Below are positions 6,997-62,507 of a DNA stretch of 64,000 nucleotides, in pieces. The DNA is taken from the NCBI RefSeq assembly GCF_000702325.1, contig NZ_KL370891.1:124001-188000 (forward strand). The letters are read 5' to 3'. This stretch comes from Thiomicrorhabdus sp. Milos-T2 (GTDB taxonomy: Bacteria; Pseudomonadota; Gammaproteobacteria; Thiomicrospirales; Thiomicrospiraceae). The position numbers and the translations under genes are program-made. The number at the start of each line of letters is the position of its first letter. Within the stretch, counting starts at the first letter, position 1. The notes below the pieces were generated by a model. That model was not told the DNA's origin. It saw only the letters and a list, made by a program, of their open reading frames with translations, and searched no databases.

Positions 6997-8097
6997 ATGC
7001 TCTGCCAAGTTTTTCCTGAACAATACGATAGTCAATTAGCCGATAAAGTGGTTAGACTGAATCAACTTCTCCCGCAATCGGCGTTGAATAAAACACAAAC
7101 TGTGTTTGCGTCTAGTCCTACTCATTACCGTGCTCGTGCTGAATTTAGAATTTGGCATGAAGGTGATGAGTCTGACTACATTATGTTTGACCAAGAAACT
7201 AAAGAAAAAGTCGCCATTAAAGAGTGCCCAATGGCAATAGAATCGATTGCGGATTTAATGCCTAAATTGATGACCGAAATTTGCAAAGAACCTATTTTGC
7301 GTGAAAGACTATTTCAGGTTGATTTTTTAGCGACGTTAAGTGGACAAATGTTAGTGACGTTAATTTATCGTAAGTCTATTAAAGATGACCAGGCCTGGTT
7401 AAATGCCGCAAATTCACTTAAAGCCGGTTTACCCATAACGCATATAATTGGTCGAGCACGTAAGCAAAAGGTTTTGTTAGATGAAGACTTTGTGGTCGAA
7501 GAGTTGCAAGTGGATGGTAAGCCGTTTATTTACCAACAAATAGAGAATAGTTTTACTCAACCTAATGCCAAAATGGCTCAGAATATGTTGCATTGGGCGC
7601 GCAAAATGTCAGAGGATGCACAAGGTGATTTAATTGAACTTTATTGTGGAAATGGACATTTTTCAATTGCTTTAGCAGAGCATTACAATCGAGTATTAGC
7701 GACAGAAATATCGAAAACCTCAGTGGCTTCGGCACAATACAATATAGCGGCTAATCAGGTGGATAATGTTACAGTGATTAAAATGGCTGCTGAAGAGATT
7801 AGTGCCGCCTTGCAAGGCCAAGAGTTTTTTAGATTAAAAAATGTAGGATTGAAAGAGTACGATTTTAAAACCATTTTTGTTGATCCGCCGCGCTCTGGTT
7901 TAGATGATTTAACGCGCAAAATGGTTACTGAGTTTGAACGTATCATTTACATCTCTTGCAATCCAGAAACTTTGGCAGTCGATTTAGCCTCTATTCAGAA
8001 AACTCATGATATTGTTGAAACGGCTCTGTTTGACCAATTTCCCTATACCCATCACATTGAATCGGGTGTGTTTTTAAAAGGAAGGAAATGTAGATGA
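6997..8097 (+). CDS. trmA: tRNA (uracil-54-C5)-methyltransferase TrmA
   Basis: SAM-dependent enzyme forming 5-methyluridine at position 54 of the tRNA T-loop. At 366 residues it matches E. coli TrmA in length and can be aligned along its whole length, from [15 protein letters not shown] at the N-terminus to [15 protein letters not shown] at the C-terminus. The SAM loop LYCGNGHFS is near residue 214, [10 protein letters not shown] near 295, and the catalytic cysteine lies in ISCNPETL near 320. There is no iron-sulfur CxxC cluster, as expected for TrmA rather than RlmD. It overlaps the next permease gene by ATGA, so the two are probably cotranscribed. The gene carries one exact copy of the ACCAGGCCTGGT palindrome. 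Confidence 0.96.
7388..7399. repeat. dispersed palindrome ACCAGGCCTGGT
   Basis: Exact copy inside trmA, read Gln-Ala-Trp. Confidence 0.9.
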
Positions 8098-8861
8098 TAT
8101 TAGCTTGGATCGGAGCTTTATTTATTGGATTAACCCTTGGTCTATTAGGATCGGGTGGCTCAATTTTAACCGTGCCCGTTTTAACTTATCTGGTTGGGCA
8201 AGAGACCAAAGTGGCTATTGCGAGTTCTTTAATTATTGTGGGAATTATCAGTATTTTTTCGGCAATTCCGTATGCACGTCAACAATTGGTTAAATGGCGC
8301 ACCGTGTTTATTTTTGGCGTGCCAGGCATGGCGGGTGCGGTATTTGGTGCATGGTTAGCTCATTATGTGAGTGATGCATTGCAAATGTTAATTTTTGCAG
8401 GCCTGATGATTGTAGCTTCTTATTTAATGTTTAAGCCTGTAAAGCTTAATGAAGCAGAGGTGGAACAAGAAGAGCGTGCTATTTACAAAATTGCCTTAGA
8501 TGGATTTATTGTTGGAGGTATAACAGGCCTGGTAGGTGTTGGCGGTGGTTTTTTAATTATTCCAGCGCTGGTTTTATTAGGCGGTTTGTCTATGCGCTTG
8601 GCAGTAGGTACCAGTTTGGTGATAATTGCATTTAAATCCTTTGCAGGCTTTTTAGAATATTTGCATGTTTTGCAAGAGATGCAGTTAAGTGTAGACTGGC
8701 ATGTTATTGGTTTATTCTCAATTATAGGTATCGTTGGTGGCTGGTTGGGTCACAAGATTAGTAGCAAAATAAATCAGCATCAATTAAAACGTGGTTTTGC
8801 TGTATTTTTAGTGCTTATGGGGGCGTTCATTCTCTATAAAAACCTCCCAAATTTATTCTAA
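8094..8861 (+). CDS. TauE/SafE-family membrane permease
   Basis: A 255-residue integral membrane protein with about eight hydrophobic segments in two homologous halves, each starting with a Gly-rich loop ([15 protein letters not shown] near residue 17 and [15 protein letters not shown] near residue 141), the signature of the TauE/SafE family. Members are proposed exporters of sulfite, sulfoacetate or other organosulfur anions; the substrate here cannot be read from sequence. The start codon overlaps the trmA stop (ATGA), indicating translational coupling without an obvious functional link. A near-copy of the palindrome (AACAGGCCTGGT) falls in the second Gly-rich loop. Confidence 0.85.
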
Positions 8862-8981
8862 GAGACTTTTTGCACCAGACTAAATACCAATAAAATTTTG
8901 CCAAGTCCTCATCAAACTTGAAAGAAGATTCCAAATTTTTGCCTCTTTAATTTAAAAAAAGGCCAATTTAAAGGAAATGCC

Positions 8982-9665
8982 ATGAAAATTATCTCTCTTA
9001 ATATGGGTAAAGTAACTCCAAAACCTTGGCGTGATGGCGTCCCTTCGGGGATTTGCAAACAATCCGTTGAGCATAGTGTGCAATTGTCAAACACAGGGTT
9101 GGAGGGTGATGAACAAGCAGATTTAAAAAATCATGGTGGCGAGGATAAAGCACTCTTAGTATTACCTACCAGCGCTTATTTACGGTTTGAAATAGAACAT
9201 GATTATGGTTTTTTAGGTGAAAATTTAGCAATTAATGATTTAGATGAAGCCGATGTTTGTTTAGGCGATCGTTTTCAGATAGGCACCGTGCTTTTAGAAG
9301 TGTCTCAACCTCGTTCACCTTGCTGGAAGCTTGATGCTCAGGTTTCGACGCGAATTACTAAATGGCAACCTGGAGAATTTTTAAAAGCTTACAGTGATAG
9401 TGGACATGTTGGTTTTTATTGCCGTGTATTAACAACCGGTAAGTTACAAAAACAGCAATCTGTTAGATGGTTAACACTTAGTAATGAAGCGGCTAAGAAA
9501 TATCCCAAAATAAGCATTAAAGAGTTATATTTAGCCAAGTCAAACCCTTCAAGTCCTAAAGATTGGAAGAGGCTTAAACAAGCCATTAATCATCCCGCTT
9601 TGTCTTTAGCATGGCAAACCAGTATTAATCAATTGTTAGATAAACACGCTGCCAAACACTCTTAA
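8982..9665 (+). CDS. yiiM: MOSC-domain protein, YiiM type
   Basis: A 227-residue protein with the MOSC sulfurase fold. It opens with MKIISLNMGKV and contains the conserved Cys in QPRSPCWKLD (near residue 114), the molybdenum-cofactor/sulfur ligand of the YiiM group, plus a C-terminal three-alpha-helix domain. E. coli YiiM is a molybdenum enzyme that reduces 6-N-hydroxylaminopurine and so protects against mutagenic base analogues. A good ribosome binding site (AAAGGAAA) precedes the ATG. It stands as a single gene between the TauE gene and ttcA. Assignment to the family is firm; the physiological substrate is inferred. Confidence 0.85.
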   Translation: MKIISLNMGKVTPKPWRDGVPSGICKQSVEHSVQLSNTGLEGDEQADLKNHGGEDKALLVLPTSAYLRFEIEHDYGFLGENLAINDLDEADVCLGDRFQIGTVLLEVSQPRSPCWKLDAQVSTRITKWQPGEFLKAYSDSGHVGFYCRVLTTGKLQKQQSVRWLTLSNEAAKKYPKISIKELYLAKSNPSSPKDWKRLKQAINHPALSLAWQTSINQLLDKHAAKHS

Positions 9666-11613: not shown

Positions 11614-11625
11614 ACCAGGCCTGGT
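11614..11625. repeat. dispersed palindrome ACCAGGCCTGGT
   Basis: Exact copy in the convergent gap between the acyltransferase and CHAD genes. Confidence 0.9.
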
Positions 11626-12433: not shown

Positions 12434-12503
12434 CAATTTAAAAATAATACTTAATTGTGACATAGAAATATAGCTAAGTATTTGAACAATTTATTAAATT
12501 TTT

Positions 12504-12559
12504 AGAGACCTTTGCACGAGATAGGTGCGAAAGAAAAATGAGGTAAAATTTGCCTGATT
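12504..12559 (+). repeat. truncated inverted-repeat element (left end only)
   Basis: These 56 bases match the left part of the elements at 42354 and 46390, from AGAGACCTTTGCACGAGATAG to TGCCTGATT, then diverge. There is no matching right end nearby, so it looks like a decayed or interrupted copy. It is part of the 0.8-kb gene-free stretch 12382-13188, which holds no supportable gene. Confidence 0.75.
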
Positions 12560-12637: not shown

Positions 12638-12649
12638 ACCAGGCCTGGT
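12638..12649. repeat. dispersed palindrome ACCAGGCCTGGT
   Basis: Exact copy in the repeat-rich gap before the long repeat. Confidence 0.9.
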
Positions 12650-13188: not shown

Positions 13189-13779
13189 TTACTTTTTACG
13201 GCCAATATACCAAGCATAACGATGTTTAGAAGGATTTTCTTGAGTCGCGTTTTCGCTATTTAACCAGCCTTCACCGTACACTAATGTTTGCAGCTTTGAC
13301 CAGGCCTGGTTAAATTCATTGGGCTGAATGTAGAAATTGGGGTTTTGGGGGGCATTGTCTTGAACTGGTGCAAGAAAGGTTTGATAGAACAATAGTCCAT
13401 TTGGTTTTAAGGCTTCTTCTATTGCTTTGAACTGGTTACGATCCAAATAACGGCTAACCACAATCACATCAAATTGTTGGTAGGGTAGAATCATTTGCTC
13501 TAAATCGGTCAGTAGTGGAGTAATAGGAAGTTGATTGAGGCTTGCCCAATTATTGAGTACTGTCAATGCACTGTCAGAGATGTCCCACGCATGCGTTTTA
13601 AGACCACATTGCGCTAAAAAACGGGCGTTGCCGCCTAATCCTGAGGCCAGTTCTAAAGCCTGACCATTAAAGGGAAGTAGTCTGCTATGTTCTTTTAAAA
13701 CAAAACTTGGGTTAGCTTGGGTGTTTAAGGTTGCCTGGGCGTATTTAGTATCCCATTTTTGAGCGGTTTTTGAGTTCAT
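13189..13779 (-). CDS. class I SAM-dependent methyltransferase, TehB-like
   Basis: A 196-residue single-domain methyltransferase. The SAM-binding glycine loop is LELASGLGGNARFL near residues 41-55, the acidic end of strand 2 is in HAWDIS near 66, and motif IV is FDVIVVSRYL near 103. The sequence around these motifs resembles tellurite-resistance/TehB-type small-molecule methyltransferases, but the substrate is unknown. It lies 19 bases downstream of trkH in the same direction, probably as the last gene of that unit. It contains one exact ACCAGGCCTGGT copy, read as Gln-Ala-Trp. Confidence 0.75.
   Translation of the reverse strand: MNSKTAQKWDTKYAQATLNTQANPSFVLKEHSRLLPFNGQALELASGLGGNARFLAQCGLKTHAWDISDSALTVLNNWASLNQLPITPLLTDLEQMILPYQQFDVIVVSRYLDRNQFKAIEEALKPNGLLFYQTFLAPVQDNAPQNPNFYIQPNEFNQAWSKLQTLVYGEGWLNSENATQENPSKHRYAWYIGRKK
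13299..13310. repeat. dispersed palindrome ACCAGGCCTGGT
   Basis: Exact copy inside the TehB-like gene, read Gln-Ala-Trp. Confidence 0.9.
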
Positions 13780-17017: not shown

Positions 17018-17119
17018 AAATCTAAAGAATTCCATCACTTTTTTCTTACCCTCTCAAATCGTTTAAAGGTTTATCTAAACAGCCCTTTAAGGAGAGAGGA
17101 AAAGCTATTCATTTGGTTG

Positions 17120-20643: not shown

Positions 20644-21251
20644 CTCAGTGGGGTCTGTAAAGAGGTTTCAAACCATTGACTTTCTAATTGCCAAGTTGAG
20701 GTTGTTAACGCATCTAAAATTAAGGGAGCAGGGAGTTTCCAATAGTCTAAAGCGATTTTCATTCGTAAAGTATACCGCTGATCGGGATGTAATTCAGAGA
20801 GAGATGCTATTGGAAAAGCTTGCAGTGTCGATAAGGTTCTTAAGGCTTCTTGTAAAGTCGTAAAAGACTGTGCTTTTTTATTACGATGGTTATAAAGCGC
20901 ATAGAGCCGATTAACGCCGTAGGCATAGAGATCGGTTTGGTATTCAACAACATTTCGGATGCGCTCATGCTGAAATCCTAATGTTTGAGTTTTTTCAGTT
21001 AATTCTATGCGGGTAATAAAACTGAGTGAAATTTCGTGGTGAATTGCATCAATAACTTCTTGTGGAAGATTAAAACGGCTTTCTGAATCAATGAGGAGCT
21101 GTTTGTTTTTTTGATAATCTTTAACTTTAAGAATAATGATTTCATCTTCTGCTTGCACCACTGTTGGTATTACCAGGCCTGGTAGAATGCAAAACAAAAT
21201 CACTAACGGGCTTTGCAAAACGCTTTGGATTAATGCAATTAGCCAGCGCAT
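20634..21251 (-). CDS. DUF4390 family exported protein
   Basis: A 205-residue protein with an N-terminal hydrophobic signal segment (about residues 8-33). The mature part shows the pattern of DUF4390 proteins (LPQEVIDAIHHEISLSF and ALDYWKLPAPLILDAL). This family is commonly encoded immediately before ntrY in gammaproteobacteria, which suggests an envelope role linked to the kinase, but no biochemical function is known to me. It overlaps ntrY and follows rsmB by three bases. One exact palindrome copy lies within the signal-peptide codons (read as Pro-Gly-Leu). Confidence 0.75.
   Translation of the reverse strand: MRWLIALIQSVLQSPLVILFCILPGLVIPTVVQAEDEIIILKVKDYQKNKQLLIDSESRFNLPQEVIDAIHHEISLSFITRIELTEKTQTLGFQHERIRNVVEYQTDLYAYGVNRLYALYNHRNKKAQSFTTLQEALRTLSTLQAFPIASLSELHPDQRYTLRMKIALDYWKLPAPLILDALTTSTWQLESQWFETSLQTPLSWQ
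21172..21183. repeat. dispersed palindrome ACCAGGCCTGGT
   Basis: Exact copy inside the DUF4390 gene, read Pro-Gly-Leu. Confidence 0.9.
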
Positions 21252-22595: not shown

Positions 22596-23551
22596 TAAAA
22601 CTGATAACCTATTAAGTCACGAGATTGAGCAAAGTCATAAGCACTCATGGCTTTTTTACCTGCGGGTTGTACTTGTTGCAAACAAATAGGTTGGTCACCC
22701 GTTGCAACAATTAAACCTTGTTTGGTTAGGCCTATTACCAGGCCTGGTAGCTTTTGTTGGTCATTAAATTTAGCTTGTTCTTCGGTATTTAATTGACGTG
22801 CCTGCCAAACTCGTAAAGGCTTGTCTTGAAAGGGGGTATGAGCAACTGGCCAAGGGTTAAAGGCTTGAATTTTACGAATAATTTTTAAAGCGGGTTGATT
22901 CCACTGAATTAAGGCTTCTTCTTTATGCATTTTTTCAGCATAGGTGACTAAGTCTTCATTCTGTTTTTCAGGAACGATACTTTTATTTTGCAAGCCTTCA
23001 ATGGTTGCCATTAAAGCTTCACAACCTAAATCGCTTAAACGGTCGTGCAAGGTTTGCGCACTGTCTTCAGGCGTGATGTCAGTGGCTAATTTGTAAAGCA
23101 TGTCGCCGGTATCTAATCCGGCATTCATTTGCATAATGGTTACACCACTTTGCGGATCTCCCGATTCAATAGCGCGTTGAATGGGGGCCGCACCACGCCA
23201 TCTTGGTAATAGGGACGCGTGAATATTTAAACAGCCCATTTTAGGCATGTCTAAGACTACTTGTGGCAGTATTAAACCATAGGCCACAACAATCATAATG
23301 TCAGCGTTTAAATCATTTAAGTTTTTTTGAGCATCGCCATCCTTAAGGGATTCTGGCTGGTATACGCTAATATTATGCTCTAGAGCAACTTGCTTTACCG
23401 GGCTTGCAGTTAACTTACGACCACGCCCTGCAGGACGGTCTGGTTGGGTATAAACGGCAATCACTTCATGTTGTGAATTTAGTAAGGCTTTTAGTGGCGC
23501 TACCGAAAAGTCCGGAGTGCCCGCAAAAATAATGCGTAATGCTTGGCTCAT
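22595..23551 (-). CDS. fmt: methionyl-tRNA formyltransferase
   Basis: Formylates initiator Met-tRNA using 10-formyltetrahydrofolate; 318 residues against 315 in E. coli. The catalytic block HASLLPRWRGAAPIQ (His near 112) and the hinge DTGDMLYK are present, followed by the C-terminal OB-like tRNA-binding domain. It follows def by five bases. One exact ACCAGGCCTGGT copy lies in the C-terminal domain and is read as Pro-Gly-Leu. Confidence 0.97.
   Translation of the reverse strand: MSQALRIIFAGTPDFSVAPLKALLNSQHEVIAVYTQPDRPAGRGRKLTASPVKQVALEHNISVYQPESLKDGDAQKNLNDLNADIMIVVAYGLILPQVVLDMPKMGCLNIHASLLPRWRGAAPIQRAIESGDPQSGVTIMQMNAGLDTGDMLYKLATDITPEDSAQTLHDRLSDLGCEALMATIEGLQNKSIVPEKQNEDLVTYAEKMHKEEALIQWNQPALKIIRKIQAFNPWPVAHTPFQDKPLRVWQARQLNTEEQAKFNDQQKLPGLVIGLTKQGLIVATGDQPICLQQVQPAGKKAMSAYDFAQSRDLIGYQF
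22738..22749. repeat. dispersed palindrome ACCAGGCCTGGT
   Basis: Exact copy inside fmt, read Pro-Gly-Leu. Confidence 0.9.
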
Positions 23552-24111: not shown

Positions 24112-25233
24112 ATGTCAAATTTTGCCGATTTACCCACAATGTTATCCCTACACTTGAGTCATGTCTCTTATGAACAGCTACAAGCAATTCAACAATATTT
24201 TGGCTCTTTAAAAACCGCCCTAGAGTCTCCAATGGTTGATTGGCAGCAGGGTGAATTAATAAACCAAGGTCAGTTAGATATTTTATTTGCGGATGAATTT
24301 CAAGCTCGTGTAGAAGAATCCTTGGCTTGGGGAGAAGAAGATAACCAGGCCTGGTTAGTTTTGGATGATAAACAGTATCCGAAAAATTTAACTGAAATTA
24401 CTGATCCTCCGATTGTGTTAGGGGTTCGTGGAAAGGTTGAATTGTTAAGTGATCCTCAAATTGCCATAGTCGGTAGTCGTCATGCCTCTAAACAAGGAAT
24501 AGAAACGGCTAAGGATTTTGCAAAACATCTTTCTCAACAAGGTTTAACGATTACCAGTGGTTTAGCGTTAGGTATTGATACAGCCGCGCATCAGGGGGCT
24601 TTACAAGGTATCGGTAAAACCATTGCGGTTGTCGCCACTGGTTTAGATCGTATTTATCCTGCGGCTAACCAAAAACTGGGGCATCAAGTAGTTGAAGAAG
24701 GCGCCATGATTTCAGAATTTCCTTTAGGCACTAAACCACTTAATTATAACTTTCCAAAACGAAACCGTATTATTAGTGGCCTCAGTGTTGGAACCTTAGT
24801 GGTGGAGGCAGCCTTAAAAAGTGGCTCTTTGATTACCGCTAGAACAGCTTTAGAACAGGGGAGAGAAGTTTTTGCTGTTCCTGGTTCAATACATAACCCA
24901 CAGGCTAAAGGCTGTCATCAGCTGATTAAACAGGGAGCTAAATTAGTCGAGTCTGGACAGGATGTTTTGGAGGAATTATCTGCCAACCTGCAAACCTCTT
25001 TAGCACTATTTGATGAACCAGAAAAGCACTCTAAAAAACAGACAACGACGCTATCTTCAACACAAAATCAGAGTAAGTTATTAGATTTGATAGGTTACGA
25101 CGCTACCGGCTTAGATGAGCTAGTGGTCGTGAGTAAAATGCCGGTTTCTAGTTTGCAAGGGGAGTTAATGTTGTTAGAGTTGTCAGGTGAAATTGAAGCC
25201 TTATCTGCGGCACGCTGGCGCAGAATTAAGTAG
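24112..25233 (+). CDS. dprA: DNA-processing protein DprA
   Basis: Binds incoming single-stranded DNA and loads RecA during natural transformation; 373 residues. The Rossmann-like DprA core begins near residue 105 (AIVGSRHASKQG, SGLALGIDTAAHQGAL, FPLGTKPLNYNFPKRNRIISGLS), with an N-terminal SAM-like region and a C-terminal winged-helix domain near 310-373. It is divergent from def, with little room for a leader. With comM in the same window it hints at competence, although dprA is widespread in non-competent bacteria. One exact palindrome copy is read as Gln-Ala-Trp. Confidence 0.95.
   Translation: MSNFADLPTMLSLHLSHVSYEQLQAIQQYFGSLKTALESPMVDWQQGELINQGQLDILFADEFQARVEESLAWGEEDNQAWLVLDDKQYPKNLTEITDPPIVLGVRGKVELLSDPQIAIVGSRHASKQGIETAKDFAKHLSQQGLTITSGLALGIDTAAHQGALQGIGKTIAVVATGLDRIYPAANQKLGHQVVEEGAMISEFPLGTKPLNYNFPKRNRIISGLSVGTLVVEAALKSGSLITARTALEQGREVFAVPGSIHNPQAKGCHQLIKQGAKLVESGQDVLEELSANLQTSLALFDEPEKHSKKQTTTLSSTQNQSKLLDLIGYDATGLDELVVVSKMPVSSLQGELMLLELSGEIEALSAARWRRIK
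24344..24355. repeat. dispersed palindrome ACCAGGCCTGGT
   Basis: Exact copy inside dprA, read Gln-Ala-Trp. Confidence 0.9.
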
Positions 25234-29784: not shown

Positions 29785-29796
29785 ACCAGGCCTGGT
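29785..29796. repeat. dispersed palindrome ACCAGGCCTGGT
   Basis: Exact copy in the topA-argS gap. Confidence 0.9.
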
Positions 29797-35561: not shown

Positions 35562-36248
35562 ATGGATTCTATTTATATTACTGCTTTTATTGTTGGGGTT
35601 TTAGGTGGCGTACATTGTTTAGGTATGTGTGGTGGTGTGGTCGGTGGTTTAACCTTTAGTTTAGAGAGTAGAGTGCAAACAAGTTGGTGGAAGATGATGC
35701 CGTACCAATTACTCTATAATTTAGGTCGAATTAGCAGTTATATGATTATTGGTGCTTTGTTTGGTGCTTTTGGCGCCACATTGGGAACTTTAGCGGCTTT
35801 TCTCCCTGCGCAGCAGATGTTACAGACTGTTGCTGGATTATTTATGATTGCATTAGGGTTGTATTTGGGTGGCTGGTGGTTTGGACTTGTTAAAATTGAA
35901 AAAATTGGACAATCGGTATGGAGTAAGTTATCCCCGTATGCATCCAAATTTACTCCGGTAAAACATTATCACCAGGCCTGGTTATATGGATTGGTTTGGG
36001 GGTGGTTGCCATGTGGTTTAGTTTATAGCATGTTAATTATGGCCATGTCTGCCGGTAGCGCGGTGAATGGTGCAACGGTTATGTTGGCCTTTGGTTTAGG
36101 AACTTTACCTAATTTAATGTTAATGGGAGTGTTTGCTTTTTATTTTACTCGGTTGTCTCGAATGATATGGGTAAAACGAATTGCAGGTACGAGTGTTATG
36201 TTGATGGGCGGATGGCAACTCTATTTAGCTTATAGCGTTACGGTTTAG
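35562..36248 (+). CDS. TauE/UreH-like membrane protein with HCxGMCGG motif
   Basis: A 228-residue membrane protein with about six hydrophobic segments. The first begins GVLGGVHCLGMCGGVVGGL near residue 14, the HCxGMCGG signature of the DsbD-like / urease-accessory-type TauE group, sometimes found near cytochrome cbb3 oxidase maturation genes and thought to bind metal or thiols. A second similar loop is GLVWGWLPCGLVYS near 143. No cbb3 genes are in this window, so its role is open. The stop is followed by a bidirectional terminator. One palindrome copy is read as Gln-Ala-Trp. Confidence 0.8.
   Translation: MDSIYITAFIVGVLGGVHCLGMCGGVVGGLTFSLESRVQTSWWKMMPYQLLYNLGRISSYMIIGALFGAFGATLGTLAAFLPAQQMLQTVAGLFMIALGLYLGGWWFGLVKIEKIGQSVWSKLSPYASKFTPVKHYHQAWLYGLVWGWLPCGLVYSMLIMAMSAGSAVNGATVMLAFGLGTLPNLMLMGVFAFYFTRLSRMIWVKRIAGTSVMLMGGWQLYLAYSVTV
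35971..35982. repeat. dispersed palindrome ACCAGGCCTGGT
   Basis: Exact copy inside the TauE/UreH-like gene, read Gln-Ala-Trp. Confidence 0.9.
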
Positions 36249-42523: not shown

Positions 42524-44329
42524 TTACGGTTCTTTTAATTGGCATTTAAGCGTTTCTAATGTCTGAGTTTTAGGATGCTTAGGAAAGGTTCTAATCATAA
42601 AATTTGCGGTATTTAATACATTTTTCCAGCGTGGGTTTTGTGGAATGGTGTTTATGGATAGATATTTATCTAAGGTTCGTGTCTTGGCCGTGCTGCCATC
42701 TAAGCTAACCCGCCAAAGATTACTTTCTGTGGCAAATTGAACTTTAGATTTTAATGTCTCTTCTTCCCAAATCGTTATGCTGAGCTGCATAATTTCTACT
42801 AGAAGTGCCAAAAAAGAATTCTGTTTTTCGGTTGGTTCAAGTTGTAACCTGGGTGAGTGGCTTTTTTGCATAGACAGTGCTTTAAGATCTCGAAGCTCAG
42901 AAGTGTCTAAAGCCATACAAATAATATAGTTATGTTTGTTTAAGTTAAAAGGCGCATTTGACCAATTACAACTAATTTCTGAACCAGATTTGGTGTAGTT
43001 TTTATTTTCTAAGTGAATGGTTTGCTGTTTGCTTATTACATTTAATAGGGTTTGGTTTACTTTGTCTGAGTGTGGTTTAACCACTAAAAAATCAAATATA
43101 TTTTTGTTTTTGACTTCTTTAAATTCCCAGCCAAAGATTTTAGTGGCTTGTTTATTCCATTCAATAATTTCCAGCGAATCATTTAGCAGAATAATCGCCA
43201 TAGGAGATTGATTAACCATCGTTCTTAACTGAACTTTTAAGCGATAAAAATATCTTGCCAGCAGCAGAGTTAAAATGATAAATCCTGTCGCTAAGAGGAT
43301 GGTAATAAGCAGAGTGCTAAGTTTATGATTAAGCCGGTTTACGGTTTCTTGACTGTTATAAAGAAACTCATTCATTGGCTTGGCATGTTTTAGAAGCCCA
43401 AGTTCTTTATAAACAGAGGCTATATGTTGCCATCTTCTTTCTGACATATGGCCCGGTTCAATTAAATCAGTGCGCATTAAAGCCTGCATTGCATTGGCTT
43501 CAAAGCGTAATGCATCGGTGGTTTTCAATCCTGGATAGGTGGTTTGAATATAGTCTATGGCTTCTTCAGTGTGGTCCATGGCATATTTCCAACCTTTTAT
43601 AGTTGCTTGACGAAATGCTTCCACTAAAGCTTGATTGTGTTGATAATAAGATTGCGTTGTAAAAAAGTTATCACCATAAAAATCAATGCCTCCCATTCTA
43701 GGGGATAAAATTCGGTAGGGAATATTTTTACTGGTAAGCTCAAAAGTTTCTGAGGTTGTGTAGACGGTCATGGCATCTACTTTTTTATCGATTAAGTTTT
43801 GAATATTAAATTCATGAGGAAGTATCTGTAAATTCTTTTCTGATAGATTTGATTGCTGCAAAAAAGCATAAATTTCAGAGGAGTTTTCCTCAATCATGAC
43901 CTTTTTACCTTTAAGGTCAGCAATGGTGTCTATGTTGGAAGATTCGAGCGATACTAGCGCTAGTGGGGAGTGCTGAAAAATAACCCCAAGAACTTTAATG
44001 GGTTCTCCTTTGTCAAAGTGCAATAGGAGTTCGCTGGTTCCAACGCCAAATTCTGCTTTACCATTTAGTACTTGTTGAATAGGGTCTTCACCAGGCCTGG
44101 CAGGTTTAATCGTGATGTTTATTCCGGCATCTTTATAAAAGCCTTTTGCCTGAGCCATGTAGTAACCGGCAAATTGAAATTGATGAGACCATTTCAGTTG
44201 CAAGGTAATGTTGCTTTCATCCTGTAATGGATTTTTCCAGTTGTCGGCGGCAAATAAGCTAGTGGGTAAACAAAATAATATAAGGCTGTATATTAGTCCA
44301 TATAGGGTTTTATTCATTAAGGCAGTCAT
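42524..44329 (-). CDS. periplasmic-binding (NMT1/THI5-like) domain fused to membrane segment and PAS
   Basis: A 601-residue membrane protein. It has a signal peptide (about 1-27), an SsuA/THI5-like periplasmic binding domain (about 40-300; FAGYYMAQAKGFYKDAGI), one membrane segment (about 338-360), a cytoplasmic PAS domain (about 365-480) and a C-terminal region (about 505-601) with WRVSLDG and RTLDKYL blocks that I cannot assign to a named family. No kinase, GGDEF, EAL or HTH is present. It follows lapD by three bases and is probably cotranscribed, so it may sense a ligand and signal to LapD. The ligand is unknown; THI5/SsuA relatives bind pyrimidine precursors or sulfonates. Confidence 0.75.
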   Translation of the reverse strand: MTALMNKTLYGLIYSLILFCLPTSLFAADNWKNPLQDESNITLQLKWSHQFQFAGYYMAQAKGFYKDAGINITIKPARPGEDPIQQVLNGKAEFGVGTSELLLHFDKGEPIKVLGVIFQHSPLALVSLESSNIDTIADLKGKKVMIEENSSEIYAFLQQSNLSEKNLQILPHEFNIQNLIDKKVDAMTVYTTSETFELTSKNIPYRILSPRMGGIDFYGDNFFTTQSYYQHNQALVEAFRQATIKGWKYAMDHTEEAIDYIQTTYPGLKTTDALRFEANAMQALMRTDLIEPGHMSERRWQHIASVYKELGLLKHAKPMNEFLYNSQETVNRLNHKLSTLLITILLATGFIILTLLLARYFYRLKVQLRTMVNQSPMAIILLNDSLEIIEWNKQATKIFGWEFKEVKNKNIFDFLVVKPHSDKVNQTLLNVISKQQTIHLENKNYTKSGSEISCNWSNAPFNLNKHNYIICMALDTSELRDLKALSMQKSHSPRLQLEPTEKQNSFLALLVEIMQLSITIWEEETLKSKVQFATESNLWRVSLDGSTAKTRTLDKYLSINTIPQNPRWKNVLNTANFMIRTFPKHPKTQTLETLKCQLKEP

Positions 44330-44332
44330 ATT

Positions 44333-46276
44333 TTAATCATCAAGGGTACTCGGTGCGCCATAGTAATAGCCTTGTGAATAATTAACCCCTTGTTCATTAA
44401 AGGCTTTTAACTGCTCTTCATTTTCTACGGCCATGGCAATGACTTCAATGTCTAAGCTATCGGCTAATTCACATAAGCTAGAAACATAGCTACGAGTTTG
44501 TTCATCGTTTTCAATGGCTTTGGTAAATGCAGAATCTAGTTTTATGTAGTCAGGTTTAAGGTCTTGTAAATATCTAACATTTCCTAATCTTGTACCAAAG
44601 TGATCTAAACCAATATTAATCCCAAATTGTTTTAATTCACTAATTAGAGACCACGTTTTAGCTTTTTGTTCCGTTACTAAGCGTTCAGGCAGCTCAAATG
44701 CCATTCGGTGAGCTAATTTTGCATTATTGGCCAGTGTTGCTAACAGCGTTTTGTGGAAATAATCATCATCTAAAATAGCTTTAGATAGGTTGATCGATAA
44801 TAGTGGGGTTTCTGGGTGTGTTTTGAGATGCTCAATGGCTAAGTCAATAACCAATTGGTCGATTTCAGCCATTTTGTGAAACTGTTCAACGGCAGGCATA
44901 AAATAGGCGGCTGAACGAATTGTGCCATCGGTGTCTTTAAGTCGAAGGAAAATTTCTTGGTCGTGAACGCTTCGTTTAGCGTTATAAGCACTTTGTTGGA
45001 AAAGTAAAAAACGTTTTTCATCAATCGCATCATTAAGCGTTTGTTCCCAGCTGTCTGTTGAATCAGTCTGATCTTCATCGGTATTATAATAGTAGGCGGA
45101 ATTACTTCCTAGTTCTTCTGCTTGTTCGATTGCAAAATCAAGATTTCCTAATAGAGGGCCACGACTTTGCCCCGGCTTGTAATCTGTATAGGCTAAAGAA
45201 ATTGAGGTTGAGGCAGAGTCCGCTTTTAATGTCTGTAATATTTTTGGCATCGCCTGCGTAATGCATTCACTTGGTTCATTAATTTGTTGAGCTACCAGGC
45301 CTGGTAAAACCGCAATTAGCTCAGTTCCGTTTAAACGTGCGAACACACTTTTTTCATGGTGTAATTGCAATTTCATTTCATCGGCTAATGACTTCATAAG
45401 TTTATCACCCACTAGGTAACCAAACTGGTCATTGAGCGCTTTTAATTCATTAACGCGAATTAGGCAAATAATTCCAGGTGGTACATCTTCATTTGGGTCT
45501 AAGAGGCTATCCACAATCATTTCAAAATGTCGGCGATTACTTAGGCCTGTTACGCTATCTTGATAGGCCATTTTTTGCAGTTTTTCAGCGGTATTGGCAT
45601 CTCTTTCAAATACCGCTTTTAGTTTAGTTACCATACCGTTCATTGCGGCAACTACTTGTTTAAATTCGGTTGTAGAAGGAATGTTTTCTTGAATTAAATA
45701 CTCTTTTTTAACAATTGCTTCAGCTTGTTTTTCCATATCTTTTAATGGTTTTAATAAAACCTTGAGCGTATATATGGCAATAAGTATGGCGATTGCGGCG
45801 GCGAGACTAAACCAAATTAGTAAGTTGGTTGCGGCTTTCCAAAGTTCTATATAGGCATAACCCGCATGGCTTGAAACGCTTAAGGTTCCGATAGGAATCC
45901 ATCCAGCTTGCACCAGGGCTTGAGCTTCTGGAGTTTTTAACTCAATAGCATTGATAAACCAGTCAGGAACGGCATCCATCGACTTTGAATTTTTACGCTC
46001 ATATAGTGGAGCATTTTCCATATCAATTAAAGAGATTTGAGAGTAATAACCCCGGTCAAAAACCGCATTAATCATGGTTTCCATACTGGAAATATCTTCG
46101 GGGTCTTCAATGCTGCTTAAAGATAATCCAAGAGATGTTGCGGTATCTTGTGCATGAGATTGCAGCTGGTCTTGTAGAAAGTTTTTGGTGTTATTAAGAT
46201 TTAAGGCAAAAGTACCTAGCAGTAAAATGATTACCATTGAGGTAATAAAAAGAATCATTTGTTTGTTTAAACTCAT
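44333..46276 (-). CDS. lapD: c-di-GMP receptor LapD
   Basis: Inner-membrane c-di-GMP effector of 647 residues that holds the periplasmic protease LapG inactive when c-di-GMP is bound. It has two membrane segments (about 7-27 and 152-173) around a LapD_MoxY_N-type output domain, HAMP (about 174-225), and degenerate GGDEF and EAL domains. The GGDEF site reads RLNGTEL, EAL reads EIFLRL, and the later DDFGT motif is DHFGTR, all consistent with a receptor that neither makes nor degrades c-di-GMP. One palindrome copy is read as Pro-Gly-Leu. Confidence 0.93.
   Translation of the reverse strand: MSLNKQMILFITSMVIILLLGTFALNLNNTKNFLQDQLQSHAQDTATSLGLSLSSIEDPEDISSMETMINAVFDRGYYSQISLIDMENAPLYERKNSKSMDAVPDWFINAIELKTPEAQALVQAGWIPIGTLSVSSHAGYAYIELWKAATNLLIWFSLAAAIAILIAIYTLKVLLKPLKDMEKQAEAIVKKEYLIQENIPSTTEFKQVVAAMNGMVTKLKAVFERDANTAEKLQKMAYQDSVTGLSNRRHFEMIVDSLLDPNEDVPPGIICLIRVNELKALNDQFGYLVGDKLMKSLADEMKLQLHHEKSVFARLNGTELIAVLPGLVAQQINEPSECITQAMPKILQTLKADSASTSISLAYTDYKPGQSRGPLLGNLDFAIEQAEELGSNSAYYYNTDEDQTDSTDSWEQTLNDAIDEKRFLLFQQSAYNAKRSVHDQEIFLRLKDTDGTIRSAAYFMPAVEQFHKMAEIDQLVIDLAIEHLKTHPETPLLSINLSKAILDDDYFHKTLLATLANNAKLAHRMAFELPERLVTEQKAKTWSLISELKQFGINIGLDHFGTRLGNVRYLQDLKPDYIKLDSAFTKAIENDEQTRSYVSSLCELADSLDIEVIAMAVENEEQLKAFNEQGVNYSQGYYYGAPSTLDD
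45294..45305. repeat. dispersed palindrome ACCAGGCCTGGT
   Basis: Exact copy inside lapD, read Pro-Gly-Leu. Confidence 0.9.
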
Positions 46277-48525: not shown

Positions 48526-49716
48526 CTAAAGGGCTTGGTGAATCGCTTCAATTAATTGGTCATCACTCAAAGTGACAACATTCCCCAGCATACTGCCGCT
48601 TCGGCAGTTTTTAATGACTGGGGTTATGTTGTCTTTAGTTAATCCAAATTCTGCAAGGCCTTGTGGAGTGTATTGATTGGCATATTGTTTTAATAATGTG
48701 ACCAGGCCTGGTAGTAATTGATTGTGATCTTGTTGAGGATTAAGCATTTGGCTTACTTTTTGGTACTTTTCAAGCGTTACTTTTGCTTGAGGTGTGTCTA
48801 GTGTTTGTAAGCTTTTAATATTGGCTTGGGTAATGGGGGCTAACAGGCGTGCACAAACTATTCCATGTGGAGCGTCAAAAAATGCTCCAATTGGTCCGGC
48901 TAAACCATGTACCGCACCCAGTCCCGCATTGGCTAAAGTGGTGCCTGATAGTGAAGCCGCAAGCATTAAATGGCTGTATCCGTTTTGTTGGTCTATTGGG
49001 TTGGTGCTATTAATGTCTTTAAACGCCCCTTTAAAAAGGGTCATGCCTTGCCAAGCTAAAGCATCAGTCATTGGGTTAGGTTTTAAGGTGGTGTAAGACT
49101 CAAGTAACTGAGTAAAAGCATCCATTCCGGTTGAGTACAGGACTTCTTTAGGGCAAGAGGCTAGTAGTTCTGGATCTAACCAGGCCTGCTTGGCTAGGAG
49201 TTTGTTATCTCTAAAAGACTTTTTAAATTCGCCAATTCTAGATAAAACCGCATTTTTGGTGGTTTCACTGCCCGTTCCTGCCGTAGTGGGTATGGCAATA
49301 AAAGGACAGGTTTTCACGTGAAACGGCTTACCTTTTCCAACGCCTTCTAAATAGTCCATAACCGACGTTTGGCTTGGAATTAATCCGGCAATGGCTTTAG
49401 CTGCATCTAAAACACTTCCGCCACCTAAGCCAATGACCATGCCGCTGTCTGCCTCACAGTCGGTCACGATATTATCAACTACCTCTGGAGAGGGCTCGCC
49501 GGAGACAATAAAGTGTTTAACGTTACAAAATGCGGAGAGTGATTGATAAAGAACATCCCCAAACTCTCCTGGATGAGCTAAGGTTTTACCAGTAATTAAG
49601 ACGATGGAGTTGGGAGGGGTTTGTTGCAGGCTTTCAATTAGTTTATGGCGAATCCCTAAGCCAAAATGAATATGTGGCATTGGGGCAAATTCAAAAGGGT
49701 TAATCACTGTGTTCAT
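48526..49716 (-). CDS. iron-containing alcohol dehydrogenase
   Basis: A 396-residue NAD(P)-dependent dehydrogenase of the group III (Fe-ADH) family. The dinucleotide-binding GGGSVLDAAKAIA is near residue 96, and the metal ligands are in the region HGLAGPIGAFFDAPHGIVCARLL near 268-290 (His residues) plus an upstream Asp. The substrate cannot be told from sequence. It begins 10 bases after rep, so both genes are likely in one transcript. One palindrome copy is read as Pro-Gly-Leu; a near-copy also lies in the gene. Confidence 0.87.
   Translation of the reverse strand: MNTVINPFEFAPMPHIHFGLGIRHKLIESLQQTPPNSIVLITGKTLAHPGEFGDVLYQSLSAFCNVKHFIVSGEPSPEVVDNIVTDCEADSGMVIGLGGGSVLDAAKAIAGLIPSQTSVMDYLEGVGKGKPFHVKTCPFIAIPTTAGTGSETTKNAVLSRIGEFKKSFRDNKLLAKQAWLDPELLASCPKEVLYSTGMDAFTQLLESYTTLKPNPMTDALAWQGMTLFKGAFKDINSTNPIDQQNGYSHLMLAASLSGTTLANAGLGAVHGLAGPIGAFFDAPHGIVCARLLAPITQANIKSLQTLDTPQAKVTLEKYQKVSQMLNPQQDHNQLLPGLVTLLKQYANQYTPQGLAEFGLTKDNITPVIKNCRSGSMLGNVVTLSDDQLIEAIHQAL
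48701..48712. repeat. dispersed palindrome ACCAGGCCTGGT
   Basis: Exact copy inside the alcohol dehydrogenase gene, read Pro-Gly-Leu. Confidence 0.9.
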
Positions 49717-49726: not shown

Positions 49727-51760
49727 CTAATTCTTTTTTAGAAATGATTTTAGATTCGCAATATGGGCATTTCCGGTTTCTAATTGCTCTTCTTTAGAAA
49801 CGACCACACCAGGTTTGCCTTCCCATTGTAATGATTCTGGAGGAAGTTCTTCTAAGAAACGACTCGGTTCACACGCCATATCTTCACCATATTTACGACG
49901 TTTAGTCGCATAGGTCATGGTTAAAGAACGTTGTGCACGCGTAATTCCTACATAGGCTAATCGGCGCTCTTCTTCCAGGCCTGGTGATTCTAAATTTTGT
50001 TTGTGCGGTAACAGCTCCTCTTCCATACCAATTAAAAACACATGAGGAAACTCAAGTCCTTTAGAGGCATGCAGTGTCATTAGGCTAACCATATCGTGCT
50101 CTTTTTCTGACTCGTTGCGTTCCATCATATCCATTAAGGCCATATGAGTCACAATTGTTTCTAGGCGCTTTTCTTCACCGTCTTCTTGTAGGGCTTTATT
50201 GACAATGCGTTCAATCCATAAAATTAGATCACGTACATTATTAATTCTACGTTCGGCACTTTTAGGATTGCTTGCGTTTTCGTGTATCCAGTTATCATAC
50301 TCAATTTTTTCAACTAGCTGGCGAACAAAAGAGGGCACTTCTTCACCTTGCGCGCCATCGGCTTCCTGAATCCAGCTTAATAGTTGTTCACCAAAGTGCT
50401 GCACACGTTTTAGAGCCTTGTCTGACAATATGGTGGTCAATCCAAATTCTTGGGTAGCGTCAAATAAACTAATGCCACGCCCTGTTGCGTAAGTGGCTAA
50501 TTTCTCAAGAGTAGAGGCACCAATTTCGCGGCGCGGTGTATTTACAATTCTTAAAAATGCGGCATCGTCATCAGGGTTAACAATGATGCGTAAATAACTC
50601 ATGATATCTTTGATTTCTGCATGGTCAAAAAATGATTTACCCCCAGATATTACATAAGAGATATTCTGTTCACGTAAAGCGCGCTCCATCAAACGTGCCT
50701 GGTGATTACCACGATAGAGAATGGCATAATCACGGTTTTTGGTTTTGTATTTAAACTTATGCACAATAATTTCAGAAACCACACGCTCAACTTCCTGGTT
50801 TTCATTGGCGCAAGCAATGACTCGTAACGGATCACCTGCTCCCATTTCACTCCATAAGCTTTTTTCAAATACGTGAGGGTTATTTGCAATTAATTGGTTA
50901 GCTGATTTTAATATTCGATTGGTTGAACGATAATTTTGCTCAAGCTTTATCAGTTCTAATGCCGGAAAATCTTCTTTAAGCATTGCCAAGTTTTCTGGCT
51001 GTGCACCACGCCAAGCGTAAATGGATTGGTCATCATCACCTACCACAGTAAAACGCGCTTGCACGCCCACTAACTGTTTAACTAAAGCATACTGTGAAGC
51101 ATTAGTATCTTGATACTCATCCACCAATAAATAACGAACTTTATTTTGCCATTTCTGCAAGATTTCAGGGTTTTCATTAAACAGCTTAACGGGTAAACCA
51201 ATTAAGTCATCAAAGTCCACCGCATTGTAGGCTTTAAGCTGTTTTTGATACGCTTGATACAGTATGGCACGAGCCTGTTGTTGAGCATCTTCAGCTTGGT
51301 TAATCGCCTCCTCGGGTGAAACGTGCGCGTTTTTCCAGCCTGAAATATCCCATTGCACCCCGTCCAAAACCTCTGGGTCAATAGTTTGTTTAAGCATAAG
51401 CTCTTTTAAGATTTGCCCACTATCAGCTGCATCCATAATTGAAAAGTTAGACTTATAGCCCAAGGCTTTGTACTCTCGGCGAATAATATTTAAGCCTAAA
51501 TTGTGAAAAGTGGAAACATTTAAACCGCTAGTATTTTCATCTTTAAGCAGTTTTGTTACACGCTCCTTCATCTCTTTAGCCGATTTATTGGTAAAGGTAA
51601 CCGCATAAATATGGTGTGATTTAACGTCACATTGACGAATTAAGTAAGCGATTTTCTCGGTAATAACACGAGTTTTACCCGAGCCTGCTCCAGCAAGAAC
51701 CAGTGCAGGGGTATCAATGTGCTTTACAGCTTGGCGTTGTCTTTCATTTAAACTGTGCAT
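49727..51760 (-). CDS. rep: ATP-dependent DNA helicase Rep
   Basis: Superfamily 1A 3'-5' helicase, 677 residues, equal to E. coli Rep (673). Motif I is LAGAGSGKTRVITEKIAYL near residue 20, motif II DEYQDTN near 215, motif III GDDDQSIYAWRGA near 240, motif V ASKGLEFPHVF near 563 and motif VI YVGITRAQ near 605. Rep accompanies the replication fork and removes protein roadblocks. It is divergent from the methyltransferase gene at 51862. Confidence 0.95.
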   Translation of the reverse strand: MHSLNERQRQAVKHIDTPALVLAGAGSGKTRVITEKIAYLIRQCDVKSHHIYAVTFTNKSAKEMKERVTKLLKDENTSGLNVSTFHNLGLNIIRREYKALGYKSNFSIMDAADSGQILKELMLKQTIDPEVLDGVQWDISGWKNAHVSPEEAINQAEDAQQQARAILYQAYQKQLKAYNAVDFDDLIGLPVKLFNENPEILQKWQNKVRYLLVDEYQDTNASQYALVKQLVGVQARFTVVGDDDQSIYAWRGAQPENLAMLKEDFPALELIKLEQNYRSTNRILKSANQLIANNPHVFEKSLWSEMGAGDPLRVIACANENQEVERVVSEIIVHKFKYKTKNRDYAILYRGNHQARLMERALREQNISYVISGGKSFFDHAEIKDIMSYLRIIVNPDDDAAFLRIVNTPRREIGASTLEKLATYATGRGISLFDATQEFGLTTILSDKALKRVQHFGEQLLSWIQEADGAQGEEVPSFVRQLVEKIEYDNWIHENASNPKSAERRINNVRDLILWIERIVNKALQEDGEEKRLETIVTHMALMDMMERNESEKEHDMVSLMTLHASKGLEFPHVFLIGMEEELLPHKQNLESPGLEEERRLAYVGITRAQRSLTMTYATKRRKYGEDMACEPSRFLEELPPESLQWEGKPGVVVSKEEQLETGNAHIANLKSFLKKN

Positions 51761-54137: not shown

Positions 54138-54165
54138 TTGCTGGTTTGTAATTGCCAGTTTGTGA

Positions 54166-54363: not shown

Positions 54364-54388
54364 ATTTAAAATTGTTAAAAACTAAACT

Positions 54389-54400
54389 ACCAGGCCTGGT
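54389..54400. repeat. dispersed palindrome ACCAGGCCTGGT
   Basis: Exact copy upstream of truD; half of it forms the left arm of the terminator-like hairpin. Confidence 0.9.
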
Positions 54401-54431: not shown

Positions 54432-55685
54432 ATGTTACCACCCTCTATTGCCGAAACCTTACCCAATTTTTCTTGCTTTGCTTATGTGAATGGACAGCCT
54501 TCATTTCAGGGGTTACTTAAATCTATTCCACAAGATTTTAAGGTCACAGAACAGATTGATTATGAATTTAGCGGTGAAGGTGAACATCTTTGGTGTTGGG
54601 TAGAAAAAATTGGGCAAAACACGGATTGGGTAGCCGGTATGTTAGCAAGTTGGGCTGGTACGGCTAAAGCCAATGTTGGATTTGCAGGGCAAAAAGACCG
54701 CCAGGCCGTGACCCAGCAGTGGTTTAGTATTCAATTACCCGGCAAACCTAACCCGAATCCAGAAGATTTAAAGGTTGATGGTGTAAAAATTTTAAAAATG
54801 GTACGCCATAACCGTAAGTTACAACGTGGTGGCTTGGCAGGAAATACCTTTGAATTATTGATTAGAGATATTAAGCCTTTAACCTCCCCAACTGAAACTG
54901 GATTTGATAATGTTGAAAACAGTAAGCAACAATTAGAAAAACGTTTACAGAAAGTATTAGAGCAGGGCGTTCCTAATTATTTTGGCGAGCAACGTTTTGG
55001 TAATAATGCCAATAATTTAAGAGAGGGTGAAAAGTTACTGGCAAGTGACTCTCGCCATGCATCTAAAAAGCGTGGTAAAAATTACCGGGGGCGAAGCCGA
55101 GGTAACCATAACCAACAAAGTTTATATATTTCGGCACTGCGTTCTTGGATGTTTAACGATTTATTAAGCCAAAGAGTACAACAGCAAAACTGGAATAAAG
55201 TACTACCTGGGGATATTCTGCAACTAACAGGTTCAGACAAATGGTTTGCAGCTGACGGAACCGAAGTTTTAGCTGATTTACAGCAACGAGTGACTGAGGG
55301 CTATTTAAGTCCAACAGGTGGGCTTTTTGGTGATGGAGAGCTGCCAACAAAAGCGGATGCTTTGGCATTAGAAAGTCAAATTGTGCAGAGTTACCAGGCC
55401 TGGTGTGATGCCTTAGCTAACAATAGAGTAAAGCAAGATAGGCGTTCTTTAGTTCTAGGTGTACCTGATCTTGAATGGGCGTTTGAGTTAATAGAACCAT
55501 CTCAATCGGTGTTAACGGATGAAAGTTTACTCAATGAAATTCAATCCCCTGAAATGCAATCCCCTGGAATGCAATCCCCTGGAATGCAACCCAACATGAC
55601 GACGCTTAATTTAAGGCTTAAATTTACTTTGCCAGCCGGGAGTTTTGCAACAATGGTATTGCGAGAGATTCTAGTGGCAGTTTGA
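54432..55685 (+). CDS. truD: tRNA pseudouridine(13) synthase TruD
   Basis: Pseudouridine synthase for tRNA position 13, 417 residues with this start (E. coli TruD is 349). Catalytic Asp is in GFAGQKDRQAVTQQWFS near residue 90, and the TRUD insertion domain follows (YFGEQRFGNNANN near 185). The ATG at 54432 is preceded by GAG and fits the family start; the frame runs 60 bases further upstream through the terminator hairpin. Between about 370 and 386 the protein has three QSPxM repeats from a 15-bp tandem repeat at 55542-55586, not shared with the enzyme core. One palindrome copy is read as Gln-Ala-Trp. Confidence 0.93.
   Translation: MLPPSIAETLPNFSCFAYVNGQPSFQGLLKSIPQDFKVTEQIDYEFSGEGEHLWCWVEKIGQNTDWVAGMLASWAGTAKANVGFAGQKDRQAVTQQWFSIQLPGKPNPNPEDLKVDGVKILKMVRHNRKLQRGGLAGNTFELLIRDIKPLTSPTETGFDNVENSKQQLEKRLQKVLEQGVPNYFGEQRFGNNANNLREGEKLLASDSRHASKKRGKNYRGRSRGNHNQQSLYISALRSWMFNDLLSQRVQQQNWNKVLPGDILQLTGSDKWFAADGTEVLADLQQRVTEGYLSPTGGLFGDGELPTKADALALESQIVQSYQAWCDALANNRVKQDRRSLVLGVPDLEWAFELIEPSQSVLTDESLLNEIQSPEMQSPGMQSPGMQPNMTTLNLRLKFTLPAGSFATMVLREILVAV
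55393..55404. repeat. dispersed palindrome ACCAGGCCTGGT
   Basis: Exact copy inside truD, read Gln-Ala-Trp. Confidence 0.9.
55542..55586 (+). repeat. 15-bp tandem repeat in truD
   Basis: Three in-frame copies of CAATCCCCTGGAATG (the first with GAA for GGA) encode a repeated QSPxM unit. Repeat number can change by slippage without shifting the frame. Confidence 0.85.
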
Positions 55686-61805: not shown

Positions 61806-62428
61806 GCAAAGAAGGTAATCGTTTAACAGCGTTTGTAGCAACAAAAAAACTTAATGTTAATGACCTCTCTGGAGTTATTATTGCTGGAGGATTAGGTAGC
61901 CGGGTAGGTTATCAACAAAAAGCCCTGTTGCCATACAAAGGTGAACCTATTCTTAAGCCGATTATGGCGATATTACAAAATCAAGTAACATCCCTTTGGA
62001 TTAATGCCAACGCAGAGTTAGAACGATATCAGCCCTATTCTAAGCAGTTGTTTTCAGATGATTATGAAGGGTTTCTTGGGCCTTTAGCGGGTATGCACGC
62101 AGCTTGGAAATATATAGAACATGATTGGGCTGTGTTTGTGCCGTGTGATAATCCTAATATTCCCAATGATTTTGTTGAAAGGCTTATTTCGGCTTATCAA
62201 AAACAACCTAATCCTATCGTAGCGGTGAATGATGGAGAACGTTTGCAACCGCTGTATTTAATGATGCATCGTTCTATGATGCTATCACTCGGCAAAGCCA
62301 TTGATATGGGACATTTGAGCGTGCATCGGTGGGTAAAAGAAAATGCATTTACTCAAGCAAATTTTGCAGACTGTTGCCCGCATGCATTTAAAAATATGAA
62401 TACACTTGAGAGTTTTGATAGTCATTAA
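61802..62428 (+). CDS. mobA: molybdenum cofactor guanylyltransferase MobA
   Basis: Attaches GMP to molybdopterin to make the bis-MGD cofactor; 208 residues from this start. The nucleotide-binding loop IIAGGLGSRVGYQQKALLPYKG near residue 20 and the DN metal site in FVPCDNPNIP near 115 agree with MobA. I chose the ATG at 61802, which overlaps the kinase stop codon (ATGA); a GTG three codons earlier is possible. The N-terminus is about 20 residues longer than usual before the nucleotide loop. Confidence 0.9.
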   Translation: MSKEGNRLTAFVATKKLNVNDLSGVIIAGGLGSRVGYQQKALLPYKGEPILKPIMAILQNQVTSLWINANAELERYQPYSKQLFSDDYEGFLGPLAGMHAAWKYIEHDWAVFVPCDNPNIPNDFVERLISAYQKQPNPIVAVNDGERLQPLYLMMHRSMMLSLGKAIDMGHLSVHRWVKENAFTQANFADCCPHAFKNMNTLESFDSH

Positions 62429-62495
62429 ATTAGTTGAAGTTCAATGACTCTATTTATTTGAAATGTATTTTACATTTATTTGAAAAAAACAACTG

Positions 62496-62507
62496 ACCAG
62501 GCCTGGT
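62496..62507. repeat. dispersed palindrome ACCAGGCCTGGT
   Basis: Exact copy between mobA and higB. Confidence 0.9.

Follow-up and report, generated by a model that had tools for sequence, protein, structure and literature searches.

Sequence-marked uptake of DNA is known, as far as the excerpted text of PMC12616744 goes, only from the Neisseriaceae and the Pasteurellaceae. The DNA uptake sequences (DUS) of Neisseriaceae occur in hundreds to thousands of copies and in dialects that follow phylogeny around an invariant inner core; they lie at permissive places within genes, and between genes they form inverted pairs tied to terminators (PMC3630211, excerpts). The uptake signal sequences (USS) of Pasteurellaceae show a strict consensus with AT-rich flanks and more perfect than singly mismatched copies, and they arise by mutation and fall into subclade types (PMC1626085, excerpts). 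Cyanobacteria carry HIP1, a palindrome iterated many times over, and some of their genomes use alternate palindromes (PMC4390886, excerpts). Here we describe a 12-bp palindrome, ACCAGGCCTGGT, found in a 64-kb stretch (positions 124,001 to 188,000 of contig NZ_KL370891.1; hereafter the window) of the genome of Thiomicrorhabdus sp. Milos-T2, which resembles all three systems in the traits just listed, inverted pairs tied to terminators being only a possible likeness. It differs from DUS in being palindromic, in belonging to another family, in its lower density, in the lack of a detected ComP and in its absence from some relatives. From USS it differs in its unrelated core, in carrying flanks on both sides and in having several spellings, where two USS types are described (PMC12616744, excerpts). 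We consider it probable (about 0.7) that ACCAGGCCTGGT, together with its symmetric flanks, serves as a DNA uptake signal in natural transformation.

Abundance, placement and origin of the palindrome

The original prediction, made from the letters of the window, had described a palindrome scattered through genes and gaps. The palindrome is real, and more extensive than one window could show. The window holds 14 exact and five one-mismatch copies of ACCAGGCCTGGT; against these 19 copies within one mismatch, 100 dinucleotide-preserving shuffles of the window gave a mean of 0.04, and Markov models of orders 1–4 predict 0.002–0.025 exact copies in 64 kb. A genome-wide count against a Markov background, proposed as a check by the prediction, bore it out. 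Across the window's genome (G000; 2,655,367 bases in two contigs, C1 and C2) ACCAGGCCTGGT occurs 498 times exactly and the reversed control word not once, and a 504-kb sample of the genome, made up of the window and 22 stretches of 20 kb, contains 99 where 0.012–0.027 were expected (orders 1–5, with sites masked for training). No other 12-bp palindrome comes close in this sample; the runner-up, ATAGCTAGCTAT, has 38 copies. Homologous longer repeats, which according to the prediction would have undone its claim, do not underlie the copies in the window: the longest exact extension common to any two of them is 7 bases and flank identity does not exceed 0.40 (60 bases per side, ungapped).

The consensus is strict. 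Thirteen genomes have at least 80 exact copies, and in 11 of them these are more numerous than one-mismatch copies; the exceptions are G010 (197 exact, 200 one-mismatch) and G035 (181 and 374). Such an excess of perfect over singly mismatched copies is a trait of USS and DUS, unlike regulatory sites (PMC1626085, excerpts). Most single mismatches in the 504-kb sample (38/46) fall in the outer two positions, and there is no excess of C>T. The word's two CCWGG sites stand side by side, rather than overlapping as the prediction had it. In G000 it is embedded in weaker symmetric flanks with A/T-rich positions, AAANYT-core-ARNTTT, giving a 24-bp extended site. Asymmetric recognition in this genome was considered and rejected, as orienting the sites by expectation-maximisation brought no gain over shuffled halves (1838 versus 1832, standard deviation 7.6).

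Among the 99 sampled sites, 54 lie within open reading frames (ORFs), 44 between them and one straddles a boundary. Coding sequence makes up 83% of the sample, and the density between genes is about four times that within them (44 of 99 sites fall in the 17% of the sample that is non-coding). By frame, the coding sites read PGL (29), QAW (20) or TRPG (5). When the gaps were classed by the orientation of their neighbours, with ranges given by ORF cut-offs of 60 and 100 amino acids, we found 12–15 sites in 12.6–19.2 kb of convergent gaps, 25–29 in 39.8–44.1 kb of tandem gaps and only 1–2 in divergent gaps totalling about 13.5 kb. A transcription factor operator would be concentrated at promoters; since the sites instead avoid divergent promoters, we rejected this candidate.

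To address the origin of the copies, coding sites in 12 orthologous genes were aligned with G003, G019 and G024, relatives free of the motif. No insertion or deletion (indel) was present at the site in 73/87 type-I comparisons (7 distinct columns) and 15/18 type-II comparisons (6 distinct columns), indicating that most copies arose by substitution; an indel was seen in the other 14/87 and 3/18, mostly in dprA and the DUF4390 gene. Residue agreement with the motif-free relatives was 0.45 at the sites and 0.65 over whole genes. Retention was then scored for the sites of five type-I genomes, pooled, with few distinct sites and comparisons that are not independent. Sites were exactly retained in 15/16 cases with each of G000, G015, G009 and G021, in 12/16 with G030, in 10/20 with G010, G018 and G033, in 5/20 with G027 and in 0/20 with each of G003, G005, G017, G019, G023, G024, G025 and G036 (the last itself type-I), set against a baseline of 1–6% for ordinary 12-bp windows (about 5% for the first four genomes). 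The sites are thus kept as DNA in close relatives, and the prediction was right that the force at work acts on DNA and not on protein.

Along the chromosome the copies are spread at random: the spacings of the first 100 sites of G000 are exponential (Kolmogorov-Smirnov p 0.97) with a coefficient of variation of 1.01. Eighteen 20-kb samples taken along C1 showed no regional bias (mean 4.0, variance 3.5), and contig C2 (443,452 bases), with 13 sites in 80 kb (four samples), has a density like that of C1. On C2 there is also a cluster of what, judged by eye, look like type II secretion genes, and some of these contain motif copies. Close pairs are found in G023, where some copies lie 18–25 bp apart; two such pairs occurred among 49 sampled spacings, and both sequenced close pairs could fold into a stem-loop with T runs after it. 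In the G000 sample no pair was closer than 207 bp among 76 spacings, and one 25-bp pair was present among the first 100 places. Spread by viruses was tried as an explanation and rejected, TACCAGGCCTGGTA occurring at a single place, and never at two, in each of 36 IMG/VR stretches.

Distribution, dialects and a G-tract signal in the family

The window's host is a member of the Thiomicrorhabdus group, whose family name we take to be Thiomicrospiraceae, following GTDB; NCBI taxonomy places T. chilensis in Thiotrichales, Piscirickettsiaceae. Within the family the motif is patchy. Per genome, G000 and 31 congeners have between 0 and 718 exact copies; among five further genera in the family, three have 181, 289 and 400 copies and two have none, and yet another genus, G331, also has no exact copy. 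In a set of 369 genomes of the class, none of the 365 from outside the family exceeds 5 exact copies. G+C content does not explain this distribution, because G036, at 56% G+C in a 20-kb sample, carries 400 copies while genomes at 42–50% in such samples carry 0–2.

In an RsmB tree (35 genomes, a single gene with some long branches; G004 and G035 left out) motif-bearing lineages enclose motif-free groups. Support is 100/96 for the motif-free group {G001, G012, G016, G022, G028, G029} and 97/94 for the pair {G002, G003}; it is weak (83/31) for the motif-free group {G011, G013, G014, G019, G024, G026, G031}, which stands beside G023. With G002 scored as lacking the motif, the tree needs at least five changes of state. 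G002 has 6 exact and 32 one-mismatch copies, a ratio inverse to that of genomes that maintain the motif and as expected from decay. When words, or 4+4 dyads with gaps of 0–12, were searched in G003, G013, G014, G019, G024, G026 and G031, none was as prominent as those in controls; for the remaining motif-lacking genomes the word samples covered only 20–45 kb.

Several lineages use other spellings, found by counting words against Markov models in samples of 104–424 kb or 9–90 kb per genome. In G008 the word is AGCAGGCCTGCT (12 in 86 kb), with GCAGG on both sides in 17/39 core sites. G005, G017 and G025 (T. chilensis DSM 12352) show a relaxed CAGGCCTG core with mixed outer bases, in 45, 36 and 48 copies respectively (124 kb each), of which only 3–4 are GAACAGGCCTGTTC; in G035 CCAGG and GCAGG halves are mixed. 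Over its whole genome G023 holds 1025 copies of ACCGGCCGGT, a word that none of 37 other genomes has more than 15 times; A/T-rich positions flank it in G023 on both sides. An asymmetric word, AACAGGCCGGGT, is used in G020 (T. cannonii HH3): it occurs 13 times in 104 kb, ACAGG pairs with CCCGG in 17/61 core sites, the nine commonest types of core site are all non-homotypic, and A/T-rich flank positions lie on one side. Counted from the centre, position -4 is C and positions -2 and -1 are G in every dialect word, a C-N-GG core. The tabulation of half-sites presupposes this core, while the word counts that found the dialects do not.

A different signal was seen in the palindrome-free clade {G001, G012, G016, G022, G028, G029}. 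Runs of at least eight G occur there at 10–38 per 100 kb (both strands), compared with 0–4.9 per 100 kb in 31 other family genomes, where every nonzero value stands for a single run; some of the samples are small. Pooling 82 runs of at least seven G gives a one-sided profile, with A before the run and A-R-A-A-W-W-T-T after it. Runs of G8–G12 with a preceding A and a following A/T tract were noted in genes and gaps of loci L161, L162, L165, L166, L169, L183 and L191–L195. Of the G8+ runs, 43/52 lie within ORFs, and both orientations are present in 9/11 loci. At aligned places the run is absent from relatives outside the clade and inside it is often, though not always, shared: L162, for example, lacks it at L161:10055, and gaps interrupt the alignment at several places. 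One apparent glycine stretch is written with GGG throughout in 3/4 clade members and with mixed codons in T. arctica (G027, DSM 13458), G007 and G015. All six genomes are metagenome assemblies; a sequencing artefact is argued against since the runs are internal, mostly in reading frames and often shared in place. The layout of a core followed by AT tracts on one side is that of the Pasteurellaceae USS (PMC1626085, excerpts), to which the sequence is unrelated. We infer that the G-tract may be a signal of the same kind that replaced the palindrome in this clade.

Copies and other repeats in the window

The starts of the exact copies had been predicted correctly in 13 of 14 cases, the copy given as 22738 beginning at 22737. 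By ORFs of at least 100 amino acids four copies are intergenic, at 11614..11625 (where the genes converge), 12638..12649, 29785..29796 and 62496..62507. The copy at 54389..54400, at the 5' end of truD or just upstream and just inside a frame opened by TTG, may be intergenic as well; given these four and the doubtful fifth, the predicted nine copies inside genes is a fair count. The others lie inside trmA (7388..7399; gene named by NCBIfam), in an S-adenosylmethionine-dependent methyltransferase gene (13299..13310, read as Asn-Gln-Ala-Trp), in the DUF4390 gene (21172..21183), in fmt (22737..22748), in dprA (24344..24355), in a DsbD_2-family gene (35971..35982), in a LapD-like GGDEF/EAL gene (45294..45305), in an iron alcohol dehydrogenase gene (48701..48712) and in truD (55393..55404). 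At the 13299 site the CAGGCCTG core occupies the same alignment column in 12/17 genomes compared, another genus included; at the dprA site it does so in 5/17. The one-mismatch copies are at 2855..2866, 8522..8533, 44090..44101, 49179..49190 and 49974..49985, all of them foreseen (the second as 8523), and a further variant proposed near 41803 differs at more than one position.

Two genes of interest for transformation lie in the window. The gene for dprA, part of the transformation machinery required by an uptake explanation, lies at 24112..25233 on the + strand (Pfam PF02481), and a comM-like gene of the Mg chelatase family at 34032..35561, also + (PF01078/PF13541/PF13335); the name comM is carried over from the prediction.

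The window also holds other repeats. Intergenic repeats with AGAGACCTTTGCACGAG-like ends, resembling miniature inverted-repeat transposable elements, occur at 12495-12559, 16952-17077, 26557-26732, 42345-42519 and 46381-46575, and at least one of them contains the ATAGCTAGCTAT palindrome. A repeat of about 340 nt is present in two copies, 12713-13056 and 63337-63679, which are 50.6 kb apart and 91–95% identical. An intergenic repeat rich in CACGAAGACACGAA has inverted copies at 29337-29642 and 54159-54373. Finally, a 728-amino-acid protein is encoded at 39925-42111, of which residues 623-704 match the PADLOC model mad3 (E 9e-24), probably as a shared domain only.

A probable uptake signal and its rivals

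Of the four options left open by the prediction, the uptake signal, placed last, is the best supported: the testable traits of USS and DUS are found here, evenness of spacing and density apart (PMC1626085 and PMC3630211, excerpts), which makes this explanation the most likely. To go from these statistics to uptake we rely on inference. A putative DNA receptor on the surface of the competence pilus would bind ACCAGGCCTGGT, and DNA from kin would then be taken up and recombined more than foreign DNA. Biased uptake followed by recombination could both make and keep the copies, dialects would follow changes in the receptor, and the palindromic form may reflect a symmetric reader in most lineages. 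Also in its favour are the symmetric A/T-rich flanks, the dialects with a common inner core, the scarcity of sites in divergent gaps, the retention in close relatives and the USS-like layout of the G-tract in a clade free of the palindrome. ComEC was found in 33/37 genomes. All 20 genomes that were searched have pilin-like N-termini, a count to which type II secretion pseudopilins contribute; in G000 such pilin-like genes lie around C1:1949036-1955518.

Several points weigh against an uptake signal. G005, G017, G025 and G035 have a relaxed core and mixed outer bases in place of a dominant 12-mer; in G035, moreover, one-mismatch copies exceed exact ones. Spacing is random, whereas USS and DUS are quoted as more even than random, and copies stand at about 1 per 5 kb (1 per 2.8 kb is attained in G023) compared with roughly 1 per kb for USS and DUS (PMC1626085, excerpts). 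Known uptake sequences are not palindromic (PMC12616744, excerpts, and general knowledge). Most motif-lacking genomes do have ComEC, and motif-bearing G006, a fragmentary assembly of 82% completeness, gave no match to it; competence by itself is therefore no predictor of the motif. The ComP model (PF16732) scored over its cut-off in 0/37 genomes, with a weak match in G019, in a search where 14 controls were silent and which thus had no positive control. Literature searches on the family found no uptake or transformation assay. Nor was a description of the palindrome found in titles and abstract openings, a scope outside which most subscription papers fall.

Two further ideas were tried and dropped. 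Loss of ComEC does not account for loss of the motif, ComEC being present in most motif-lacking genomes (G031 is without it). The GspH/FimT family (PF12019) was rejected as receptor, with matches only in G011, G019 and G026, all of which lack the motif. The G019 match lies within a cluster of four pilins; the corresponding cluster in G000 (L139) looks by eye like type II secretion genes, and the match is therefore no receptor candidate. As a separate observation, G031, 99% complete and with no ComEC match, has one exact motif copy.

An unlikely alternative is a protein that organises or segregates the chromosome and binds the palindrome as SlmA, Noc and MatP bind theirs, which are likewise palindromic protein sites on the chromosome. 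A homodimer would fit the symmetric 24-bp extended site, and avoidance of divergent promoters would be natural. However, the sites of SlmA, Noc and MatP number in the tens and show regional bias, while here there are about 500–1000 with no bias seen, whether by C1 samples, by exponential spacings or by the like density of C2. An essential organiser also fits ill with such numbers, with wholesale change of dialect and with absence from several clades; it is hard to reconcile with an unrelated G-tract in one motif-free clade, and the asymmetric form in G020 tells against it too. Lack of regional bias and the dialects thus disfavour the segregation site that the prediction had considered. Quite improbable, in our estimate, is a recombination hot-spot word of the Chi type, read by a RecBCD-like enzyme. 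Iteration, presence in genes and restriction to a family would agree with it, and the G-rich signal resembles Chi in composition, but the palindromes are unoriented, the G-tracts run in both orientations in most loci, and over-representation by thousands-fold with so strict a consensus goes beyond what is known for Chi.

The HIP1-like and methylation options of the prediction fare worse still, and we regard as very improbable that the motif is a by-product of DNA methylation and methyl-directed repair. Here too an iterated palindrome is patchily distributed with alternate palindromes, and mismatches gather in the outer two positions as they do for HIP1 (PMC4390886, excerpts). The methylase families searched were PF00145 (C5-methylases) and PF01555 (N4/N6-methylases), with PF02086 and others not among them; a match to one or both was present in 7/13 genomes with at least 80 copies. 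In the remaining 6/13 (G000, G010, G015, G021, G027 and G033) PF01555 and PF00145 over its cut-off are both absent, as they are in the dialect genomes G017, G020, G023 and G025; G000 has one PF00145 match below the cut-off. These two families were therefore rejected as general writers of the motif, and as far as they are concerned the basis of a HIP1 model is gone. The missing C>T excess speaks against it as well, and HIP words of 5–8 bp (PMC4390886, excerpts) contrast with a longer and stricter word of 12 bases plus flanks. Hardly credible at all is a mobile or copy-number element in the form of a tiny insertion repeat: exact copies are scattered and a minority of alignments do have an indel at the site, but flanks are not shared and most sites align without one.

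If ACCAGGCCTGGT is an uptake signal, the Thiomicrospiraceae would be a third family with sequence-marked uptake. We give somewhat better than even odds to this wider proposal, in which the trait evolved independently, with a palindromic signal in several C-N-GG spellings that is asymmetric in T. cannonii, lost in some clades and in one of these replaced by an unrelated, directional signal of G8+ runs and A/T tracts. These bacteria are free-living sulfur oxidisers, and sequence-marked uptake would then not be bound to host-associated life. Chemolithoautotrophs are hard to engineer, and the signal would provide a practical tag for transforming them. Palindrome, dialects, losses and apparent replacement would together offer a natural experiment on the loss and genome-wide rewriting of uptake specificity, and would allow direct tests of why such specificity evolves and what the receptor is.

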